From IMG/VR virus record IMGVR_UViG_3300042889_000940, positions 1 through 22,844 of that record: a DNA stretch of 22,844 bases; one strand, given 5' to 3'. How positions within the stretch are numbered: position 1 is the stretch's first letter; each line of letters opens with the position of its first letter. Shown here one piece after another: positions 2,818-22,843 of this stretch. The notes under the pieces are model-generated. The model saw only the letters and a list, made by a program, of their open reading frames with translations, was not told where the DNA came from and searched no databases. The DNA comes from a virus. The position numbers and the translations under genes were made by a program.

Positions 2818-4150
2818 AATTTTTACCGATTGTTGTTTTTACTTTGTACCTACCATGCCCACCTTTTAATATAGGTATGATATCAGTATATAAATATTGT
2901 TTTTCTTGAGGATACACATCAAATACAAATGCATCGTATGTATATAATATCAATTTTGTACGTTTTCCTTCTAATTTCTCTTTAATTTTTAATATTTTCT
3001 TTATATTTCTTTCAGTTTCGTATGCCTGGATATAATAATTAAGAACTTTGGCAGGAGTTATAGGTTCTAATCTTTCAATACCAAACTGAATATGGTACAA
3101 ATGTGTAAATATTGCTTTGTTTTTTATTATTGTTTCCGATAATAAACCTGTAAGATGTTGTATTTCTTTAAAATATGGAATATGCAATAACTCACTTCTA
3201 ATCCCACCATATAAATTTTGGAATATTAAAGTTTTTACTTCATTTCTATCATCAATACCCATTTGATTTCCAATCCATGTGTAAAAATCTAAATCACTAC
3301 CATAGAAATCTTTAATCCATTGCATTTCTTTTACATCTACTTTTGAATTAAGTTTGGTTTGATAAATAATATCCATCAATAATCTTGGGTGATATGCTTC
3401 AAAATCTATACTCACCAATTCACCATCATCAAATCTACTTACAAATGCCTTTCTCTCACAGGTATCTTTTTTAAGTGCAGCGTAGTTTACACCCCCATAG
3501 CGGTTCGATGGTCGGAGTGTTGATGTCATTAGGTTGTATTGAGTGTAAACATAGTTATCCTTCGTTAAATGAACTGGATTGTAGTTTAAAACGTAATCCC
3601 CATCTACCTTTAATCCACTACTTTCAATATAACCAAATGCCGTTGTTACATCATCTACATATTTTATTGAATTTTTATCTATATTAATTGAAAACTTAGA
3701 AACATATTGTTTTATGAGTTCTAATTGTTTAACCATTGGGATACTATCATTCAAATATGGTTCACTTTTAAACTTTGATTTGTAAAATTGATTTAATTGA
3801 TTGTTATCCAATTCAATGCCATGATAACCATATTCAATAAATCTTGCTAAATCTGCATCATATCCTTTGGTAAAATTTAATATTTGTGAAATTGCTTTAT
3901 AATTAAAAATTAACTGAGGATGTTGTGTATTTAATAATTGTTGTAATGCTTCTACTTTAATTCCTAACCCATCTCCATTGTTTACATTTATAACCCATTC
4001 ATCTTTTTTTGATTTTACATAAATAAAAGATATACGATTGTTCATCACATGCTTTTCTTCATCTGATAATCTAACGTATATTAAATTAGTATGTTTTCTA
4101 TATTCTAATAGGAAGTTTTCAAATTCAAATTTATTTTCTACAAATGTCAT
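2804..4150 (-). CDS. Divergent family A (Pol I-like) DNA polymerase, 448 aa
   Basis: The polymerase core is visible from about residue 200. A T-x-x-LRPS block (209-215) matches the TGRLSS region. CERKAFVSR leads into motif A at SID249FEAYHPR. Motif B is R302-xxx-K306-xxx-F310-xxx-YG (314-315), with exactly the O-helix spacing of Pol I. Motif C is YTYD406AF. Both metal-binding Asp positions (249 and 406) and the O-helix Arg/Lys/Phe/Tyr are kept. Unusual changes: the motif A Glu (E710 of Pol I) aligns with His254, and motif C HDE reads YDA. The N-terminal 120 residues resemble the outline of a 3'-5' exonuclease domain, but its acidic catalytic residues appear lost. There is no 5' nuclease. At 448 residues it is shorter than a Klenow fragment (about 605). 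It follows a terminator, has its own host-type promoter and overlaps the 771-residue gene by 14 nt, so the pair may act together. Confidence 0.82.
   Translation of the reverse strand: MTFVENKFEFENFLLEYRKHTNLIYVRLSDEEKHVMNNRISFIYVKSKKDEWVINVNNGDGLGIKVEALQQLLNTQHPQLIFNYKAISQILNFTKGYDADLARFIEYGYHGIELDNNQLNQFYKSKFKSEPYLNDSIPMVKQLELIKQYVSKFSINIDKNSIKYVDDVTTAFGYIESSGLKVDGDYVLNYNPVHLTKDNYVYTQYNLMTSTLRPSNRYGGVNYAALKKDTCERKAFVSRFDDGELVSIDFEAYHPRLLMDIIYQTKLNSKVDVKEMQWIKDFYGSDLDFYTWIGNQMGIDDRNEVKTLIFQNLYGGIRSELLHIPYFKEIQHLTGLLSETIIKNKAIFTHLYHIQFGIERLEPITPAKVLNYYIQAYETERNIKKILKIKEKLEGKRTKLILYTYDAFVFDVYPQEKQYLYTDIIPILKGGHGRYKVKTTIGKNYDEL
2888..2896 (-). promoter_or_regulatory. Possible internal late-promoter motif (ATATTTATA)
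   Basis: This is an exact copy, in the transcribed direction, of the motif found before the tail genes. It lies inside the 3' part of the polymerase gene, about 70 nt upstream of the 771-residue gene start. It also encodes part of a YLYT stretch, so it may be chance. Confidence 0.3.
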
Positions 4151-4178
4151 GTAACAAAGATATTCTTTTTTTGTTACA
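4150..4178. promoter_or_regulatory. Palindromic operator candidate over the polymerase promoter
   Basis: TGTAACAAA (4150-4158) and TTTGTTACA (4170-4178) form a perfect 9-bp inverted repeat with an 11-bp centre. The palindrome spans the -7 element and most of the spacer of the predicted promoter, where a dimeric repressor would block RNA polymerase. Confidence 0.5.
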
Positions 4179-4185
4179 ATACAAA
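4155..4185 (-). promoter_or_regulatory. Bacteroidetes-type promoter (TTTG, 19-nt spacer, TATCTTTG)
   Basis: Read on the minus strand, TTTG at 4185-4182 is followed by 19 nt and then TATCTTTG at 4162-4155. This fits the known Bacteroidetes -33 TTTG / -7 TAnnTTTG consensus, including spacing. The predicted transcript start falls about 4 nt past the -7 element, at or next to the ATG at 4150. The polymerase mRNA would then be leaderless or nearly so. It lies just downstream of a terminator. Confidence 0.6.
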
Positions 4186-4189
4186 ATAA

Positions 4190-4215
4190 AAAGGAGAGTA
4201 ATTAAACTCTCCTTT
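4190..4215 (-). terminator. Rho-independent terminator after the PhyH-family gene
   Basis: A perfect 10-bp stem, AAAGGAGAGT / ACTCTCCTTT, closes a 6-nt loop. On the minus strand it is followed by TTTTATTTTG. It starts 6 nt past the stop of the oxygenase gene and separates it from the polymerase transcript. Confidence 0.85.
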
Positions 4216-4221
4216 GTAATT

Positions 4222-5004
4222 CTATTCACTCCAATGTTTGATTCGTAATTCTTTCATATCGATTGGCTCTCTTTTCATATGGCCACCTTTTGAAAAATTC
4301 GAACCTCTTTTTAAGTAACCACCTAATAGGTTTCTTCTCATTCTATTAGATGTATTTGTTTCAGAACCATGAACATTATGTGAATGTAATAACACCACTT
4401 GTCCTTTTTTTAATATTCCTTCTAACTTTCGGAAATCATGTCCTTCTGGCATAACACACGGTTTACCTCTTTCATTACTCCAAAATGCCGGGTTTGTTTT
4501 TGTTCTTTCATCATCAACTTCTATTGGTAAAATTGGTAATCTATGTGTACCTTCGTATACCCAGACTGAACCATTACCTGCATCGTGGTTATCTAATGCT
4601 AATGCGGTATTGATAATTTCATTGTGACCACATTTTGTATAAAATGCGTTTTGATGTTGATCTCTACCTAATTGTCCTGGTGGTTTGAAATAACACCAAT
4701 CTTGCATTCCATCAATTTCACCACCCATTAAATATTCAACTGCTTCCAAAATTTTTGGATGTGCAAAATATTTTTCTAATAATGGTGAAAGTTTATGTGG
4801 ATATGCAAATGGATCCCACTCTCCCCAAATTTTACCATCAGGTGCGGTTGTTCCTGTTCTTTCATTTCTCAAACGGTCTAACTCATTGTTAATTACATCA
4901 CACTCTTCTTCGGTAAGTAATTCTAATGTTGTAAATCCTTTGTATCGCCAATCAAACGTAATTTGTTGGACTTCTTCTTCGCTAAGATGTTTTAACTTTG
5001 CCAT
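4222..5004 (-). CDS. Phytanoyl-CoA dioxygenase (PhyH) family 2-oxoglutarate/Fe(II)-type oxygenase, 260 aa
   Basis: This matches the PhyH-type double-stranded beta-helix oxygenases, which couple 2-oxoglutarate decarboxylation to hydroxylation of a substrate. Visible landmarks are the N-terminal helical cap (LTEEECDVINNELDRLR), the proximal metal loop GRDQH117-Q-N119-AFY, the strand segment GNGSVWVYEGTHRLPILP, and the distal His in LLHSHNVH212GSETN, followed by NR221 for the 2-oxoglutarate carboxylate. The usual H-x-D ligand motif reads H-Q-N here, so one iron ligand is changed unless another residue (for example D115) substitutes. The substrate cannot be predicted; modification of a small metabolite or of virion or surface sugars is possible. 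It lies between baseplate and polymerase genes, follows a late-type motif at 5022-5030, and ends in a terminator, so it looks like a single-gene late unit. No Shine-Dalgarno sequence. Confidence 0.85.
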   Translation of the reverse strand: MAKLKHLSEEEVQQITFDWRYKGFTTLELLTEEECDVINNELDRLRNERTGTTAPDGKIWGEWDPFAYPHKLSPLLEKYFAHPKILEAVEYLMGGEIDGMQDWCYFKPPGQLGRDQHQNAFYTKCGHNEIINTALALDNHDAGNGSVWVYEGTHRLPILPIEVDDERTKTNPAFWSNERGKPCVMPEGHDFRKLEGILKKGQVVLLHSHNVHGSETNTSNRMRRNLLGGYLKRGSNFSKGGHMKREPIDMKELRIKHWSE

Positions 5005-5021
5005 ATAACTTGTTTATTTAT

Positions 5022-5030
5022 TATAAATAT
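5022..5030 (-). promoter_or_regulatory. Putative late promoter motif ATATTTATA (PhyH-family gene)
   Basis: Exact motif on the minus strand, with 17 nt between it and the ATG at 5004. It is one of eight gene-proximal copies in the window. Confidence 0.5.
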
Positions 5031-5072
5031 AATGTATTATTTTTTACTATCCAAATTAAAATATGACTTTTA

Positions 5073-5438
5073 TCACATTTTTGAAAACAATGTAAGATTT
5101 TTCAAATAGGTATCTAAATTAGAGATATCTAATTTTCCTAAATTAATTGATTTTCTATTTGCCGTTTCTATTTCGTATTTTTCTCCACTTACTTTCCATC
5201 TAATACGTGTTATCATAAATAGCGGATCGTTTTTATATTTGGTATGGGTATCTATGTTTATTTCAAATATAGTTCCATTTACTTCATTTCTTTTTCTAAT
5301 AAAATATCTATAAATAAATCCAATTTGATAATCTCTTTCTATTAACGTTGGTTCATGTGGCGATAATACTGGTTGCTTATATACCTTTTTTTTATTTATA
5401 GTATTATATCTATCAATTATAGTTTGATTAATTTGCAT
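5073..5438 (-). CDS. Hypothetical small baseplate-cluster protein, 121 aa
   Basis: No family is recognised. It is Lys/Ile/Tyr-rich, mainly beta in appearance after residue 40 (alternating GFIYRYFIRKR, GTIFEINIDTHTKY, MITRIRWKVSG), and soluble. Its ATG overlaps the TAA of the hub-like gene by one base (TAATG), with GGAGAATA just before the ATG, so it is translationally coupled and belongs to the baseplate operon. By position it could be a small wedge or hub accessory protein. That role is inferred from context only. Confidence 0.7.
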   Translation of the reverse strand: MQINQTIIDRYNTINKKKVYKQPVLSPHEPTLIERDYQIGFIYRYFIRKRNEVNGTIFEINIDTHTKYKNDPLFMITRIRWKVSGEKYEIETANRKSINLGKLDISNLDTYLKNLTLFSKM

Positions 5439-15451: not shown

Positions 15452-17764
15452 TTATGCGTTAAAAGTTGCCCCAGTTGGTAAAACATTGAAATCAATTTGA
15501 ATGAATTCAGCAGTTTTAGTTGGTTGTAAGAATATTGCACCTTTTAAGATGTTTCTATCGATTACGTCTGGAGTGTTGTTTGTTTCATCCATTACAACTT
15601 TGAATGCGTATAAACCTTGTCTTTGTTGAATGTTCTCTAAATAAGGATTAACCGTATTTAAAAATTTAGTTCTAGTATCCGTTGTATTTTGTTCGAATAT
15701 TAAGTATCTACTAGTTGAAGCAATATACTTCTTAACTGTGATAAGTAATCTTCTAACATTGATTCTATCTAATGCTGATGGTCTAGCTTGTAAGGTTTTT
15801 TGTCCGAATGCTACGATACCTTGTCCAGGGAACTGAGCGATTGGATTTACTTTTCCTTCATATAAAGTATCTCTATCAGAATGAGTTAATCTATCTAATA
15901 CTGCTACTGCTCCAGTGATACCACCTCTATTCAAACCTGCAGGTGCGAACCATTCAGCTGAAGTTGCATCGTTTGCTGCATATACTCTAGGTAATAATAC
16001 AGAAGGAGGAACAGTTATTAATTTGTTTGTGTTCGTGTCAATTGTTTTAACCCAAGGATAGTAAACTGCTGCATAGTTAGTATCTAATCCAGCTGCAATA
16101 TCTACTACGGTTGCAATACCAGCACCTTGTCCTGCTGCATCCATAATATAAAATGTATCTGAACGGTTTTCACACATATCCATCGCTGCTTGTGTTACAT
16201 TTCCGTGTTCGTTATGATTAACACCAGGTAATACTAATAAGTTAATATCCCACTCATCTACATTTGATAGTGCATTTAAACATTTTTTGTATGCTGCTGA
16301 ACCACTTGATGCAGAAGTTGATAAATCAAACCCTTGAACGTTTGCAGAAATAATATCTAATCCTTTGTTGATTGGAGTTGTTGGATTTACACCATCAAAT
16401 CCACCTTGAAAAGCTACTGTGAATGTTCTGTATGAAAGTTGTAATGCATTTGCATTTGAAGTTAATGGTAATGCCGCTTGTGAATCTAAACCAAATGCAA
16501 CGTTAGAACCGGTTGTTGCTGCATCAGGAGTTGGATTTAAATAAAATGTATTATCAGAATTTCCCTCTAAGTCAATACCACTACAATAAATTGAAGAACC
16601 ATTTGATGCTACTGAATAAGTAACAACTGGAACACTTAAATCACTTGCTGTTTTAATTGGTAATGTATATGCACCATGTCCAAATGGAACTGCTGCTACT
16701 GGAGCTGATTCATTTGCTACTACTCTAATATATTTAGATTTATTAGACCAGTCACCTAATGTAGTTACTTTACCATTTGAATCTATTGTACTTACTTCAT
16801 CACCGATTACTCTAGCGATATAGTTAGTTGATGTAGGATCTAAGTTTACATTATTGTATTGTTCTAAAATTGTTTTTCTCTTATCAGTATCATCGTATTT
16901 TCTAACATATACTGAGAACGTACCGTAATCAGAACCATTGATATCACCCGCTGCTTTAACGTTACCAATTGTAACTTTAAATCTTGTATTTTCAACATTA
17001 CCATCTGCTAATGTATAAAATTGGAATAAATCATATCTACTACCACCGATTAATTGAGATTGAATCATTGGAGTTGCTGCCCCAATTGCATCTTGTCCTA
17101 ATAAATCTTGGGTAGGTAAATTATCTGCAATTACACTTGCTGTCATATTGTTAGCAGTAGCGAAATCTAATAGTGCTTTTGATTTTGTAGTAAAGTTTGT
17201 ATATGCATATGCTCTTTTTGCACCTTTTACTGATTTTCCAAATACATTTTCGATTGAAGCTACACTTGAAGGATTTACTGATGCGAAAACTGATGCATCA
17301 GCTGGATCTAAAAGAGTTGCGTGTAATAAGAATGAACCATCTTTATAATCATTAACAATTTCTGCTGAATCAAATCCAGTTTCAGTATAATCTGCTCCAA
17401 TTGTTGTTGGATACAATGTACTTACGTATGATGATGTTACTCCGTTTGCTGAACTACTAATTTGTAATTTTAATCCTATTGCATTTTGTTGCTCATATCC
17501 ACCGATACCAGCTACTCTACAAATGGTTACTAAACCGGTCTCTCTTAAATAATTTTGAGCGGTTAATTCTGTGTAATATGTACCATCCGCTGCACCGAAG
17601 ATATCTTCTAACTCAGATGGTGATGTTACGATTGTTGGTTTAAACGCCGGTCCTTGTTTGAAAGGTCCTACAATTGCCCCACCAATAGCTCCAACTCCTT
17701 GTGCTATGAATGATAAATCGTTTTCTCTTGTAAATACGCCCGGCGATACTAATTTTTCAGCCAT
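15452..17764 (-). CDS. 18: Contractile tail sheath protein, T4 gp18-like, 770 aa
   Basis: The N-terminus (LVSPGVFTREND, then GAIGGAIVGPFKQGPAFKPT, then ELEDIFGAADG) and C-terminus (KTLQARPSALDRINVRRLLI, then GAIFLQPTKTAEFIQIDFNV) are the conserved inner-domain segments of T4-type sheath proteins, which contract to drive the tube into the host. At 770 residues it is longer than T4 gp18 (659), so the protruding middle domains (about 100-480) are enlarged; these are beta-rich and Ser/Thr/Asn-rich and may face outward. It has a good Shine-Dalgarno and an exact late motif. The tube gene follows after about 45 nt, with no terminator visible between them. Confidence 0.95.
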   Translation of the reverse strand: MAEKLVSPGVFTRENDLSFIAQGVGAIGGAIVGPFKQGPAFKPTIVTSPSELEDIFGAADGTYYTELTAQNYLRETGLVTICRVAGIGGYEQQNAIGLKLQISSSANGVTSSYVSTLYPTTIGADYTETGFDSAEIVNDYKDGSFLLHATLLDPADASVFASVNPSSVASIENVFGKSVKGAKRAYAYTNFTTKSKALLDFATANNMTASVIADNLPTQDLLGQDAIGAATPMIQSQLIGGSRYDLFQFYTLADGNVENTRFKVTIGNVKAAGDINGSDYGTFSVYVRKYDDTDKRKTILEQYNNVNLDPTSTNYIARVIGDEVSTIDSNGKVTTLGDWSNKSKYIRVVANESAPVAAVPFGHGAYTLPIKTASDLSVPVVTYSVASNGSSIYCSGIDLEGNSDNTFYLNPTPDAATTGSNVAFGLDSQAALPLTSNANALQLSYRTFTVAFQGGFDGVNPTTPINKGLDIISANVQGFDLSTSASSGSAAYKKCLNALSNVDEWDINLLVLPGVNHNEHGNVTQAAMDMCENRSDTFYIMDAAGQGAGIATVVDIAAGLDTNYAAVYYPWVKTIDTNTNKLITVPPSVLLPRVYAANDATSAEWFAPAGLNRGGITGAVAVLDRLTHSDRDTLYEGKVNPIAQFPGQGIVAFGQKTLQARPSALDRINVRRLLITVKKYIASTSRYLIFEQNTTDTRTKFLNTVNPYLENIQQRQGLYAFKVVMDETNNTPDVIDRNILKGAIFLQPTKTAEFIQIDFNVLPTGATFNA

Positions 17765-18144: not shown

Positions 18145-19788
18145 TTATAATCCGTATCTACCTTTTAAATTGTTCCAAACATATCCTATTTCAGTTGCAG
18201 TTAACGCTCTTTGATAGAAAAAGAATGAACCTAAATTACCAGTATTATTTTGCATTAAATAAATATCAGCTACCGCATTTGTATTAGCTGCAGTTGATAC
18301 ACCATTTGAAACTAACGAACCATTATTATAAAATATTGTTTGAGCATTTCCAGATGTAACTGCCAACATATGCCAACCTGTTAATGTAGTTGGTGTTGAT
18401 GATTGGTTACCATGTGGTGTTGAATTTAAAGTCATTGTAGTTCCAGTTGCTGAGAAGGTCCAATCTGTACTTCTACTTAAAATGTTACCTGCACTATTTT
18501 GTACAAACGCAATAATAGTAAATCCGGTGTTTAAAGATGTATTGAAATTTGTATAGCCTGTACCACTTGCATTTGCTATTTGTTTAATACCATATTTACC
18601 ACTTGCAAATGTTAATGATTTTGGAGATGTTGCATTAAATGAAGGTGCTGCAATTGCTGGACTTGCATTTCCACCGGTTAAGTTAAAACCGGTTGAATAT
18701 CCTGCTACATCATTAAAATTAGTACCACTACCAGCATAAGATGCTGCAAATTGAGGTTCTAAATAACATACTAAATTTGTCCATGGAATTGGTGCAGTTG
18801 CTGCTCCTTTATTATGTGAAACAAATCCATTAGCTAAATAAGTATGTGCAGAATCTACTGTGATTGTTGCAATTTCTAATGTTTTATTGAAGAATTCTAT
18901 TTTCTCTACTAATACATCTTCGATTAATCCGGTTGTTGTGTTATATTTTACTAATTTGTCACCTTCTACAATATCCTCTGCTCTTGTAAATTGATATGTT
19001 TCGGTAATATCATCCCAAGCAAAGAACGGATGTGCACCTGTTACTTTTATTGATCCAAAATTAATATCAACATAATTATCAATAAATGAATAATATACAT
19101 TGCTAACTATTGCATCTACAATTTCACCATTAGAACCCGTTTCATTATACCACCAATACCACTCTGCTGGATCATTTTCAGGAAACCATTCTGGCATTCC
19201 CGTTGGTACAAATGTTTTAATTGTATCACCTATGTATAAATCACCTGCTTTTACAGTTGAACCATCTGCTAATAAAATATCAGTATCGGTACTTACACAT
19301 AAAACATCTGAATTAATTGAGTTATATGAATCTACTGAATAAATTGTTTTAGTTGATGCTACATTGTAATTCGTTGCGGTTGTATTATATCCGTCTGCAT
19401 ATGTTGCTGTTAATGTTGTTGCATTACTACCACTATACGTTGCTCCTGCCAATGAATTTGCAGTAATTGCAACCGATGCTCCTTTTGTACCAACACTAAA
19501 ATAAGTTGCATCACTTACTGTTACCGTATAATTTGCGGCCACCCCTTTGATTCTATTATCAAACGCAACACCCTGTGTACTAAACGCAAAAGTTACATTT
19601 TCTGCAGTAGCTTCTACTATATACGTAAATGGTTGTGTTATTGCCACACTATCAAACGCGAATGAACTCATAGATACGGCGGTGCCGGCTGATGCATTCA
19701 TTGCATTTAAAGAAACTGCTTGTGAAGTTCGTGCAGTACCTTGGGTTGCTCTATATAAATTACCTAAACTTAAACTTGTCTTTGCCAT
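18145..19788 (-). CDS. Virion surface-type protein with internal Hint (intein-like) domain and C-terminal LamG-like domain, 547 aa
   Basis: Three parts are visible. Residues 1-160 are a Ser/Thr/Ala-rich beta region with repeated strands. Residues 164-326 are a Hint domain: C164 starts it (VLC164VSTDTDILLADGSTV), T250-G-A-H253 is the TxxH block B motif, and VDSAHTYLANGFVSH325N326 is the C-terminal block. Residues 335-547 look like a LamG/concanavalin-type beta sandwich (CYLEPQFAASY, TGFTIIAFVQNS, GWHMLAVTSGNAQTIFYNNG, FFYQRALTATEI). The residue after N326 is Lys, not Cys/Ser/Thr, so ordinary protein splicing is not expected. Cleavage at either end, as in bacterial intein-like (BIL) domains, is more likely and would release the LamG-like part (about 221 residues). 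With no homing endonuclease (163 residues), it is not a selfish intein of the usual kind. It has a Shine-Dalgarno-like AAGGAA and a late motif, and lies after the glycosyltransferase. Confidence 0.82.
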   Translation of the reverse strand: MAKTSLSLGNLYRATQGTARTSQAVSLNAMNASAGTAVSMSSFAFDSVAITQPFTYIVEATAENVTFAFSTQGVAFDNRIKGVAANYTVTVSDATYFSVGTKGASVAITANSLAGATYSGSNATTLTATYADGYNTTATNYNVASTKTIYSVDSYNSINSDVLCVSTDTDILLADGSTVKAGDLYIGDTIKTFVPTGMPEWFPENDPAEWYWWYNETGSNGEIVDAIVSNVYYSFIDNYVDINFGSIKVTGAHPFFAWDDITETYQFTRAEDIVEGDKLVKYNTTTGLIEDVLVEKIEFFNKTLEIATITVDSAHTYLANGFVSHNKGAATAPIPWTNLVCYLEPQFAASYAGSGTNFNDVAGYSTGFNLTGGNASPAIAAPSFNATSPKSLTFASGKYGIKQIANASGTGYTNFNTSLNTGFTIIAFVQNSAGNILSRSTDWTFSATGTTMTLNSTPHGNQSSTPTTLTGWHMLAVTSGNAQTIFYNNGSLVSNGVSTAANTNAVADIYLMQNNTGNLGSFFFYQRALTATEIGYVWNNLKGRYGL

Positions 19789-19803: not shown

Positions 19804-20808
19804 TTAACTATTATAAATATCTAATAAATTATCAACCCATTTGTTTCTATCTGAGTACTCATACATATATTCTTTTAGTTTATTAAACCAATGTTTTTTG
19901 TATTCGTAATCACTATTTTTAATCAATTGTACCGTTTGTTCAAATTCTGTTTTAGTTTCTGCTCTAAACGGATAATTCCACTCTTTCATCCAATCTTTAC
20001 TCAATATAGGTAGTTTACCATAATCAACTGCTTGAAATATTGAATACCCAAATGGTTCATAATTAAAACAACTATGTGAAATTCCCCAATCTAAACGATA
20101 AAACCAATCTAATTTTTTATAATCAAAAATATATCGTTTAGCTCGTTTGAAATTCACCCCATATCCCCTTTCCCATACATTATTTAAAACTCTCAAAGCT
20201 GTAAATAAATAACAATCTATATTTTCCAAATACCAAACTCTTTTTCTAGTTTCTGTTCTTGCTGCAAATCCTACTTTCGTACTATCACTACATTCTAAAT
20301 TATGAGTAAAATCATAATAATTAGGAATATCAATGAACTCATACTCTGCATGCTTTGGAGTTTGAAATAAACCTATCCAAATTCTTTTCTTTGCCGATTT
20401 GATTATATTCGTTTCCCACTCCGAGTCTGCTCCATAATGTTGCATACCAGGTGCTTCTGAAAATAATCCAGCCTTTAGAGACATATCAATTGAATTATGC
20501 ATTACATAACTTTCAATCTTGTCCAAATTGTTAAGGATTGCTGAGTTAGGGTAGTAGTGTCCGTGTAGTATGTGTATTCGCCGAGCACTATTTATAAGTT
20601 CATCAAACTTATCTTTATCATCCACTTGCCAATAAATTTCGAGGGGGAATTTCACCCCCTCAAAATCATCGGGTTTCTTTCTATGTATAAGTAGGATAGG
20701 TTTTACTTTTAAGTGAGGAACAATGTATTCTACAAAGTTATTCACCCAAACATCACTACCAGCACCTACTTTATTTCCGAAACCTGTTGTATAATATACA
20801 TCATACAT
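19804..20808 (-). CDS. GT-B fold glycosyltransferase (GT4-like), 334 aa
   Basis: The C-terminal half has the nucleotide-sugar binding signature of GT4-type retaining transferases: CFNYE251PFGYSIFQAVDYGKLPI, equivalent to 'E-x-F-G-x-x-x-x-E-A-x-x-x-G-x-P-V'. The second Glu is Gln-Ala here. A strand-turn at 178-190 (KVGFAARTETRKR) fits the Arg and Lys that bind the donor phosphates. The N-terminus has a Gly-rich loop after the first strand (TTGFGNKVGAGSDVW). It probably transfers a sugar from a nucleotide donor to phage or host glycan or protein; the acceptor is not predictable. The gene begins 7 nt after the fibre gene and ends 15 nt before the Hint protein, so it is co-transcribed with surface proteins. 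It has no Shine-Dalgarno and no membrane segment. Confidence 0.82.
   Translation of the reverse strand: MYDVYYTTGFGNKVGAGSDVWVNNFVEYIVPHLKVKPILLIHRKKPDDFEGVKFPLEIYWQVDDKDKFDELINSARRIHILHGHYYPNSAILNNLDKIESYVMHNSIDMSLKAGLFSEAPGMQHYGADSEWETNIIKSAKKRIWIGLFQTPKHAEYEFIDIPNYYDFTHNLECSDSTKVGFAARTETRKRVWYLENIDCYLFTALRVLNNVWERGYGVNFKRAKRYIFDYKKLDWFYRLDWGISHSCFNYEPFGYSIFQAVDYGKLPILSKDWMKEWNYPFRAETKTEFEQTVQLIKNSDYEYKKHWFNKLKEYMYEYSDRNKWVDNLLDIYNS
19812..19820 (-). promoter_or_regulatory. Putative late promoter motif ATATTTATA (Hint protein)
   Basis: Exact motif, 23 nt before the ATG. It sits in the last codons of the glycosyltransferase gene (encoding part of DIYNS). Confidence 0.45.
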
Positions 20809-20815
20809 TTTTTTA

Positions 20816-22843
20816 TTATTTTTTTAGAGCTTCTACTTCTGCTTTTAATTCAGCTATTTGTGTTTGTTGCTCTTTAATTGCTTCTACTAATAAACCAACC
20901 ATCTTAGAGTAATCGATACCTAAATAGCCATCTTCTCTTTCGTTTACTACTTCTGGTAAAACTTCTAACACTTCCTGTGCGATTAAACCAGTTGTAGGTG
21001 CGGTTTTAGTTACTTCGTTTACATCATCATTCCATTTCCAAGTTACACCATTTAATTGTTTAACTTTATTTAATGCATTTGAAATGTTTACTATGTTATT
21101 TTTTAATCTTTTATCCGAACCTGAGTACGCTACGATATCACCTGTTGCAGATACACTTGCGAATGCTACTGCTGATGTTGTTGCAATTGATTGTGGTAAT
21201 GATAATGTTACACCGCCAGTTCCTGCACTTGCAATAACTTGACTCGTTGTACCTGTGATTGAAGTTACACCCGTATTTGTAATAACTGGAGTTGAACCTT
21301 CACCGGTTGCCGTACCTACTGTGATACCAGTACCAGCCGTCATAGTTGCTACATAATCACCGGTTGTATCAGTTCCTAATGCTACCGAATTAGCAGCGAT
21401 TGTAGTTGCAAATGATACGTTAGCTAAATCTGTTATTGTACCGGTACCTGTTACATCACCTGTTAAAGTAATTGAAATATCTTTTCCTTCTAATGTTGTT
21501 ACTCTACCACTTAATGTTGATATAGAAGTTGCGGTTGAGGCAGAGTATGCCGATGCACTTTGGAATGCTCCCCATGCCGATGCAGAAACAGTTGTCATAT
21601 TACTCCAACCTACTGAATATGTAATATTTGTTGAATATACACTTTGGCTTACTACGTTTAAACTAGATGAAACACTAGTAAGTGTAGAATCTTGATTAGC
21701 ATCTCTTGTAAATTGAGAAGCACTTACTGCGATTAGAGTTGAATTACTTCCTGATATAGATGCCGCTACACTTGCAGATACTGCCAATGTATCAGTTACT
21801 AATTTTACTGAAGCACTATATGCACTTGCACTTGCGAAAGCACCAGCTGCACTATTTACGTTAGTTACAATTCTACTATCTACTGATGTTGAATATGTAG
21901 TTACATTTCCAATACCGTTTATTGAAGATGCACTTATCGCTGAAGTTACGTTTATAGAACCAGTAACTTGTAAGTCGCTACTTACAATTAATGAACCACT
22001 TACATATACTTGAGTTGCACTTGCAGAAATGATTGAATTTCCAATGTGGTCATCACCTACTGCTACCGGAACTTGTCCTACTGTCAATCCAACTTCACTT
22101 CCCAATGAACCACTATTTTTAGGTCCACTTATTAATTTTGCAGATGCATATCCTTCACCTTCTGGGTTTTGATAAACCCAAACGTTGTTAGTTGAATCCC
22201 ATAGTAAAGAACCAGTTGTTGATGATGAACCTTGATCTATTACAGAAATACCACCGAATCTAACGGATGGTGAATCCGTATTTAAAATCACTGTGTTTGT
22301 ACCAATTGATACTGCACTTGCTGTAATATTTTGTAAAGATGAAGAACCTTGAACAATGAAATCACCACTTATATACATTGAACCAGTTACTACTTGTGTT
22401 CCAGTGAATATATTTGATGCATTTAATTTAGCGTATCCTTCCGATGCAATTGAACCACTTAAAGTTGAGATAGAATTTGCAGTTGCAGTTGCTACTGAAG
22501 AGCTAATTGAGATTGGCCCCCAAATATTTTCATAAATACTTTGGCTTACCGAAGCACTTAATTGTGAAATTGAAGAACTTACCGAACCGCTAAATCCACT
22601 ATCAAATGGTCCGTTGCCATATATAGTATTATGTATACTAGAACTTAATGATGCACTTAAACCTGTAACCGGATAAAATAAACTATTAGATACAGATGCA
22701 CTTAATTCTGCAATTGAAGCACTTAATGCAATTGCTACACTTGCACTTAATGAATTTGGCCCCCATTGTACTGCGTTATATACACTACCACTAAGTATAT
22801 CAATTGAAGCACTTAATGCAGTTGCTGCACTAGCACTTAAACC
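20816..22843 (-). CDS. Tail fibre / receptor-binding type protein with S74 self-cleaving chaperone domain (5' end outside window)
   Basis: The first Met in this frame (22378) is not the true start: the frame stays open for 155 further codons to the window edge with the same repeated composition, giving at least 675 residues. The visible N-terminal region is a stalk of about 30-residue units such as LSASVAIALSASIAELSASV plus an aromatic or Pro turn, then SASAYSAS-type and Gly/Thr-rich beta repeats. The last 100 residues are a Peptidase_S74 intramolecular chaperone. The motif GSDKRLK supplies the Ser-Lys dyad (Ser about 576 of the visible 675), followed by NGVTWKWN, TGLIAQEVLEVLPEVV and a final coiled coil. 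In this family the domain helps trimerise the fibre and then cuts itself off before the Ser. The glycosyltransferase follows after 7 nt. Confidence 0.92.
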   Translation of the reverse strand, partial: GLSASAATALSASIDILSGSVYNAVQWGPNSLSASVAIALSASIAELSASVSNSLFYPVTGLSASLSSSIHNTIYGNGPFDSGFSGSVSSSISQLSASVSQSIYENIWGPISISSSVATATANSISTLSGSIASEGYAKLNASNIFTGTQVVTGSMYISGDFIVQGSSSLQNITASAVSIGTNTVILNTDSPSVRFGGISVIDQGSSSTTGSLLWDSTNNVWVYQNPEGEGYASAKLISGPKNSGSLGSEVGLTVGQVPVAVGDDHIGNSIISASATQVYVSGSLIVSSDLQVTGSINVTSAISASSINGIGNVTTYSTSVDSRIVTNVNSAAGAFASASAYSASVKLVTDTLAVSASVAASISGSNSTLIAVSASQFTRDANQDSTLTSVSSSLNVVSQSVYSTNITYSVGWSNMTTVSASAWGAFQSASAYSASTATSISTLSGRVTTLEGKDISITLTGDVTGTGTITDLANVSFATTIAANSVALGTDTTGDYVATMTAGTGITVGTATGEGSTPVITNTGVTSITGTTSQVIASAGTGGVTLSLPQSIATTSAVAFASVSATGDIVAYSGSDKRLKNNIVNISNALNKVKQLNGVTWKWNDDVNEVTKTAPTTGLIAQEVLEVLPEVVNEREDGYLGIDYSKMVGLLVEAIKEQQTQIAELKAEVEALKK
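22711..22840. repeat. 90-bp period repeat in the fibre stalk coding region
   Basis: The 40-bp stretches at 22711-22750 and 22801-22840 agree at 37 positions. The 90-bp period is 30 codons and encodes successive LSAS-A-x-x-LSAS-I/V stalk units. Shorter, more diverged copies continue to about 22400. Confidence 0.8.

Follow-up and report, generated by a model that had tools for sequence, protein, structure and literature searches.

The window, by which we mean the whole stretch of 22,844 nucleotides analysed here, carries on its minus strand a gene whose product contains a Hint domain with an Ig-like part on its N-terminal side and a LamG-like part on its C-terminal side, within a run of phage tail genes (Table 1). 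The open reading frame was confirmed from ATG to stop (547 residues), and the plus strand is rich in stop codons in the frame read. A tail sheath gene lies downstream, and an earlier note on this DNA was correct in proposing a phage tail setting. The S74 fibre named in that note as the neighbour is real and close by; it is not directly adjacent, as a gene of 334 residues lies between the two. This intervening gene has no Pfam, NCBIfam or PDB match, and it is putatively glycosyltransferase-like, on the strength of the family 4 (GT4-like) motif EPFGYSIFQAVDYGKLPIL. No Rfam matches were found in the window.

Table 1. Coordinates within the window of the Hint-bearing gene, its parts and the neighbouring tail genes.
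Feature	Position	Strand	Basis
Whole Hint-bearing gene, 547 aa: N-terminal part, Hint domain and LamG-like domain	18145-19788	-	
Residues 1-44, helical, low-confidence	19657-19788	-	pLDDT mostly <50
Residues 45-152, Ig-like (BIG2-type) domain	19333-19656	-	Structure matches
Hint domain, residues 164-326, 163 aa, without endonuclease	18811-19299	-	Sequence and fold
Cys164 codon, first Hint residue, predicted thioester cysteine	19297-19299	-	155/156 distinct proteins
T250-x-x-H253, block B	19030-19041	-	T and H each in 156/156
H325-N326, final Hint residues (predicted Asn cyclisation)	18811-18816	-	156/156 each
Lys327 codon, +1 residue, proposed acyl acceptor	18808-18810	-	156/156
C-terminal part, residues 327-547: linker, then LamG-like domain (about 339-546)	18148-18810	-	Fold; Laminin_G_3 in relatives
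Glycosyltransferase-like gene, 334 aa, directly before the Hint gene	19804-20808	-	80/80 loci (best 80 of 411)
Tail fibre with C-terminal S74 (endosialidase chaperone) autopeptidase	20816-22378	-	PF13884, E = 4.5e-18; tail fibre PHROGs
Tail sheath, downstream, same order in relatives	15452-17764	-	Pfam/PHROGs; 78/78 loci

The window protein carries a complete Hint domain. The NCBIfam model intein_Cterm matches it with 17.5 bits, above the cut-off of 15.6, over model positions 5-23 of 24 and with N326 as the last residue, and the match to intein_Nterm starts exactly at C164, with 20.5 bits and thus under the cut-off of 24.5. The best Pfam match is PT-HINT (PF07591, E = 4.1e-5), which scores 24.3 bits against a gathering score of 27.7 in the window protein and exceeds that cut-off in 2 of 11 related records; Intein_splicing (E = 1e-3) also falls under its gathering score in the window protein. 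An AlphaFold2 model has a mean pLDDT of 67, with values mostly between 65 and 90 in the Hint part, and its residues ~158-328 match Hint structures with Z scores of 16 to 18.6. The top structural match is BIL2 of the Tetrahymena BUBL1 polyubiquitin locus (PDB 6y75, 6tmm; Z 18.6, rmsd 1.8, 138 residues aligned), a rank that is not decisive, as the next dozen entries are tied with it within 1-1.5 Z units, the Mtu RecA mini-intein and Hedgehog among them within one unit. When a profile of 34 family members was used, the first match was Clostridium thermocellum BIL4 (E 5e-4) and the next four were BIL2 chains. Model confidence is low (pLDDT <50) at both junctions, residues 154-162 and 328-333, as expected of flexible, accessible cleavage sites. 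The residues C164, T250-G-A-H253, H325-N326, K327 and G328 are all in place, so that the motif set of the earlier note, intact and followed by Lys, is present at the positions it gave, and its description of a complete Hint domain with bacterial-intein-like traits is borne out by the NCBIfam match and by the fold. The fragment masses it predicted, about 16, 17 and 22 kDa, are too low; those computed for the N-terminal part, Hint domain and C-terminal part are 16.8, 18.4 and 23.1 kDa.

Residues 1-44 contain a pattern, 'SLSL...SLNAMN...SMSSF', that is reminiscent of the anchor motifs in T4-like tail proteins, and this segment is possibly the site of virion attachment. For residues 45-152 the best fold matches are the S-layer protein SbsB (Z 8.3) and the Ig domain of the lambda tail tube protein V (Z 8.0), values near 8 being borderline by the yardstick of the tool; many phage BIG2/Ig proteins are also found among the viral models (BFVD) that match this segment. 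Residues ~330-546 match LamG-type folds with Z scores of 16-18, including the pilus adhesin PilC, the binding domain of a GH43 enzyme (AbnA domain 4) and the lectin domain of a sialidase (NanB). While the window protein itself has no Pfam LamG match, Laminin_G_3 (PF13385) is matched in two relatives, L380 and L075 (E 1.4e-17 and 3.4e-15), so that the fold in the one and the sequence profile in the others agree with the LamG-like module described earlier. The C-terminal part is LamG-like and 220-257 residues long in freshwater members, and about 100 residues long in marine members, where a weak fn3 match (E 0.005, L382) and, in L402, a Tissue_fac match (E 0.06) were found. No PHROGs name was obtained for the whole protein at E 0.01, and the LamG part alone gave weak matches to phrog_8510 and phrog_24074. 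Judged by fold and position, the LamG-like or FN3-like head would act as an adhesin, and the Hint-bearing protein is probably a tail adhesin. A comparable LamG domain (27% identity, E 2e-3) occurs in gp86 of Synechococcus phage S-CREM2, which likewise adjoins a long tail fibre gene; unlike the window protein, gp86 is without a Hint domain and has a different N-terminal part. Several other structural matches were set aside: trans-sialidase and botulinum complex chains matched solely through the common concanavalin/LamG fold, long Foldseek alignments to sialidases had rmsd values above 20 and are meaningless, and matches to human lysozyme (E 0.04 and worse, residues 126-157) are due to chance.

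In order to assess conservation, IMG/VR was searched with the whole protein, with its three parts and with alignments, which yielded 31 to 80 loci each; the alignment searches returned 388, 321 and 323 related stretches, and the best 80 of each were examined. The pooled set comprised 156 distinct proteins of at least 380 residues, forming 25 clusters at 70% identity over the Hint domain, with a lowest pairwise identity of 28% between clusters in this domain. T250, H253, H325, N326 and K327 are each kept in all 156 proteins, and C164 in 155, the sole gap being a protein cut by a contig end (L025). Hence the loss of C164 or N326 from homologues that retain the domain, which the earlier note named as a result that would count against it, was looked for and not seen. 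These relatives also rule out a sequencing artefact, and the lack of an endonuclease, and of empty sites among the loci examined, rules out a mobile intein. Homologues without the Hint domain, which the note had suggested for comparison, were sought, and the N-terminal part was seen without it in none of the loci examined (best 80 per search of several hundred). In one locus, L389 (~3834-5200), a frame change splits the Hint gene into two open reading frames, which may be a sequencing error.

The 27 columns that are invariant among the 25 clusters include only one after N326, that of K327, which makes this lysine the sole invariant residue of a C-terminal part whose heads are LamG-like in some members and FN3-like, by a weak match, in others. 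The residue that follows it is Gly in 154 proteins and Ser in 2; one protein, L104, has an extra Ile after the Lys (HNKIGG), which was aligned as an insertion, so that it counts among those with Gly at +2. Arg is found at +1 in none of the 156, although K/R exchange occurs elsewhere in the protein (K3, K390), and charge alone therefore seems insufficient. Among 34 representatives, identity to the window protein is 53-81% in the N-terminal part, 33-90% in the Hint domain and 23-78% in the C-terminal part, which suggests that the head diverges or is exchanged while the anchor persists. The codons of T250, H253, S324, H325, N326 and G328 vary synonymously in these representatives, which for the first five argues for selection on the protein; C164 (TGT) and K327 (AAA) each have a single codon throughout, so that synonymous change lends these two residues no support. 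Two further invariant residues of the 25 clusters, W210 and E305, lie in the Hint domain and, as we understand it, outside the usual Hint motifs; they are candidates for positioning Lys327.

The surroundings of the gene were sampled independently of the Hint domain by searching with the neighbouring gene of 334 residues, which gave 411 related stretches, of which the best 80 were examined. The Hint gene lies on the same strand in all 80 of these loci, 13-34 bp downstream of the glycosyltransferase-like gene, and is followed by the tail sheath in all 78 that are long enough. An S74 fibre ends no more than 1.6 kb upstream in 47 of 61 loci of this sample, and in marine members an extra open reading frame can separate the fibre from the partner gene. 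The glycosyltransferase-like gene is thus the constant partner of the Hint gene, and the S74 fibre is a frequent neighbour. In Microcystis phage Mel-JY01 and Flavobacterium phage immuto, whose sheaths are the closest relatives, the 20 kb around the sheath contain neither a Hint gene nor the partner. No isolate with the same protein was found among 50,697 phage records, which gave only partial or distant matches, and neither the Hint alignment nor the glycosyltransferase-like gene had a relative in bacterial genome contigs; the phages with this Hint-bearing tail protein are an uncultured, water-dwelling family. A second Hint gene was sought in 11 larger records, and each held at most one match (10 with a match).

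Comparison with known Hint proteins places the domain closest to the A-type bacterial intein-like (BIL) domains. It has the Hint fold, Cys at position 1, T-x-x-H, a His-Asn end and no Cys, Ser or Thr at +1, and it shares all of these with BIL4 of Clostridium thermocellum (PDB 2lwy; Z 17.5, rmsd 1.7, 132 residues aligned), together with the absence of an endonuclease and perhaps a variable surface protein as host. Unlike BIL4, the window Hint domain lies in a phage tail protein, with a constant Lys at +1 and a constant position in the genome. BIL domains are reported from non-conserved bacterial proteins (PMC5874633, in excerpt); in the present family the downstream domain is variable, whereas the place of the gene and the N-terminal part are conserved. 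The sequence thus appears to agree with the description of A-type BIL domains except for this fixed genomic place. The classification as a class 1 intein does not apply, because the +1 residue is Lys in all 156 proteins and no empty sites occur among the loci examined. Pretoxin HINT domains of polymorphic toxins (PF07591) belong to the same superfamily and likewise precede a variable C-terminal module, but the module here is a LamG-like or FN3-like binding domain, and since no toxin domain lies downstream the window protein is not of this class. On these grounds we describe the domain, provisionally, as BIL-like, marked by Lys at +1 and domesticated in the tail adhesins of phages.

The structural resemblance to BIL2 bears on the role of the lysine. 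BIL2 is reported to splice through an isopeptide bond, formed with the amino group of a lysine, that links its two flanks, and can also hand its N-terminal flank to other substrates (PMC8616854, section 2.4). It is eukaryotic, with ubiquitin-like flanks and a zinc-linked switch, whereas the window domain stands between Ig-like and LamG-like flanks and lacks ubiquitin-like ones; a lysine at the junction is present in the form of the invariant K327, the acceptor role of which is putative. The nucleophilic lysine of BIL2 lies in the downstream ubiquitin-like domain and, within that section, is not stated to be the +1 residue (PMC8616854), so that the parallel would be one of chemistry and not of detail.

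Hint domains also occur in tail or virion proteins of jumbo phages (NCTB, Y3, Yoloswag, Alexandra, AD1 and fHe-Yen9-02), some records of which are already annotated as 'contains intein domain'. In these the domain lies at the end of the protein, with 1-12 residues after the HN, and without a LamG or FN3 head. Ten phage tail Hint domains outside the family were compared, three from NCTB and one each from Alexandra, Yoloswag, Y3, SNUABM_32, AD1, fHe-Yen9-02 and the uncultured LR756508; their +1 residue is T in five, A in two, K in two and V in one, in contrast to the constant Lys of the window family. The two with +1 Lys are LR756508 (HNKH, then stop) and NCTB gp135 (HNKVD, then stop), and both show motif defects in the alignment, LR756508 having its block-B His replaced and NCTB gp135, a small protein, apparently lacking Cys1. 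LR756508 (L349, 3116-5504) encodes a virion-type protein with a terminal Hint domain, followed directly by a copy of the partner gene with 40% identity; here the gene order is reversed, and the partnership therefore reaches beyond the family. No adjoining glycosyltransferase-like gene was present in the stretches examined from NCTB and from the Erwinia, Dickeya and Yersinia jumbo phages. The NCTB locus (L049, 5420-12679) holds three Hint-bearing genes in one tail region, and the Erwinia, Dickeya and Yersinia phages (L345-L348, L350, L351) have a conserved tail of 10-12 residues after the HN, for example TDIVAKAEKK.

The retention of the complete Cys1, TxxH and His-Asn set over a range of identity that extends down to 28% argues for an active domain, and we consider the Hint domain very probably active, which would make this a phage tail protein that processes itself. 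The earlier note had concluded from the +1 Lys that the domain would cleave and not splice. This does not follow: a +1 nucleophile is often missing from A-type BIL domains, which mostly cleave but can also splice (PMC5874633 and PMC7664689, both in excerpt), and the lysine is invariant in all 156 proteins. Given this invariance and the isopeptide precedent of BIL2, Lys+1 could equally well be the acceptor or mark the loss of a nucleophile, and, so far as the alignments indicate, it belongs among the conserved elements of the reaction or of the junction and should not be taken for a replacement. We tentatively favor a model in which a domesticated, A-type-BIL-like Hint domain excises itself from the tail protein of a T4-like contractile-tailed phage and the +1 Lys serves as acyl acceptor, so that anchor and adhesin are rejoined, although we hold this with somewhat less than even confidence. 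In this model Cys164 would take over the Leu163-Cys164 bond as a thioester; Asn326 would then cyclise, breaking the 326-327 bond and releasing the Hint domain; and an amine of Lys327, most likely that of the side chain, would take the thioester from the N-terminal Ig-like anchor. Anchor and LamG-like head would as a result be covalently rejoined, within one chain or across neighbouring ones, and would no longer contain the Hint domain.

That Lys327 is the acceptor is a serious possibility that stops just short of being probable. An invariant +1 Lys that is never Arg, in front of exchangeable heads, is best explained by its amine acting as acyl acceptor. On the other side, the lysine could be kept for the rate of Asn cyclisation or for the fold of the junction, and two other lysines are similarly conserved, K147 and K402 in all 34 representatives and K147 in the 25 clusters as well. 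The two outside proteins with an HNK junction, LR756508 and NCTB gp135, have just H or VD after the Lys, where joining makes little sense, and BIL domains give mostly cleaved products (PMC7664689, in excerpt). It is possible, if rather doubtful, that the outcome is an intein-derived isopeptide formed in the tail without ATP, in which the C-terminus of the anchor is attached to the side chain of the Lys+1 of the head, perhaps that of a neighbouring subunit, to give a stapled adhesin with an exchangeable head, and that the partner enzyme modifies the same assembly.

The chief alternative is plain double cleavage, in which the Hint domain cuts at both of its ends, water resolves the thioester, and the head is separated or held non-covalently. 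This is the usual outcome of BIL domains without Cys, Ser or Thr at +1 (PMC7664689 and PMC5874633, in excerpt), and the flexible stretches beside both junctions (pLDDT <50) suit it; but it leaves the Lys at +1 in 156 of 156 proteins unexplained while the downstream domain is exchanged, and it would be strange for an adhesin to part with its head for good. We regard plain cleavage as unlikely, if to be taken seriously. Conjugation, in which the anchor thioester is passed to an amine or hydroxyl on another virion protein or on a sugar from the partner enzyme and Lys+1 merely aids release, appears improbable. Hedgehog conjugates to cholesterol in like manner. The constant adjacency of the glycosyltransferase-like gene (80 of 80 loci among the best 80 of 411) would suit such a reaction, as would the partner copy that accompanies the tail Hint gene of the distant LR756508 in reversed order and the transfer by BIL2 to other substrates (PMC8616854), and in the jumbo phages the Hint domain lies at the extreme C-terminus, so that the N-terminal reaction alone can matter. 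Against this, the acceptor is hypothetical, the activity of the partner enzyme is putative, and the partner is absent from the NCTB, Erwinia, Dickeya and Yersinia stretches examined. An inactive or purely structural Hint domain, serving as a spacer or folding unit, would accord with Pfam scores under the gathering score in the window protein, but a spacer would have lost some of the catalytic residues, all of which are retained down to 28% identity, and we consider this highly improbable. Least credible is that Lys+1 acts as a degradation signal or stability tag at the N-terminus of the released head: in bacteria an N-terminal Lys counts as a secondary destabilising residue, yet Arg would serve equally and occurs in 0 of 156, and a part of the virion should not be marked for degradation.

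A search of literature that was largely outside subscription journals gave no publication on the present phage family, nor any on phage Hint domains with Lys at +1. What is already known is the 'intein domain' annotation of jumbo phage tail proteins; what appears new, judging from the alignments, is a Lys+1 BIL-like domain in tail adhesins, where the Hint domain belongs permanently to a virion protein and the lysine is conserved as strictly as the catalytic asparagine. If the preferred reading, with Lys327 as acceptor, is true, the range of isopeptide-forming protein splicing would widen beyond a single ciliate locus to take in a large group of phages, and protein engineering would gain a new ligation chemistry with a Lys acceptor and no +1 Cys. 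How phages exchange the LamG and FN3 heads of the adhesin while one anchor stays conserved also becomes testable. Even if the domain only cleaves, it would represent an intein-like maturation step in phage tails, one that hundreds of contigs have kept (388, 321 and 411 related stretches). Elsewhere in the window, a gene of the phytanoyl-CoA dioxygenase family (PF05721, E 1e-18) lies at 4222-5004 on the minus strand, within the phage structural region.
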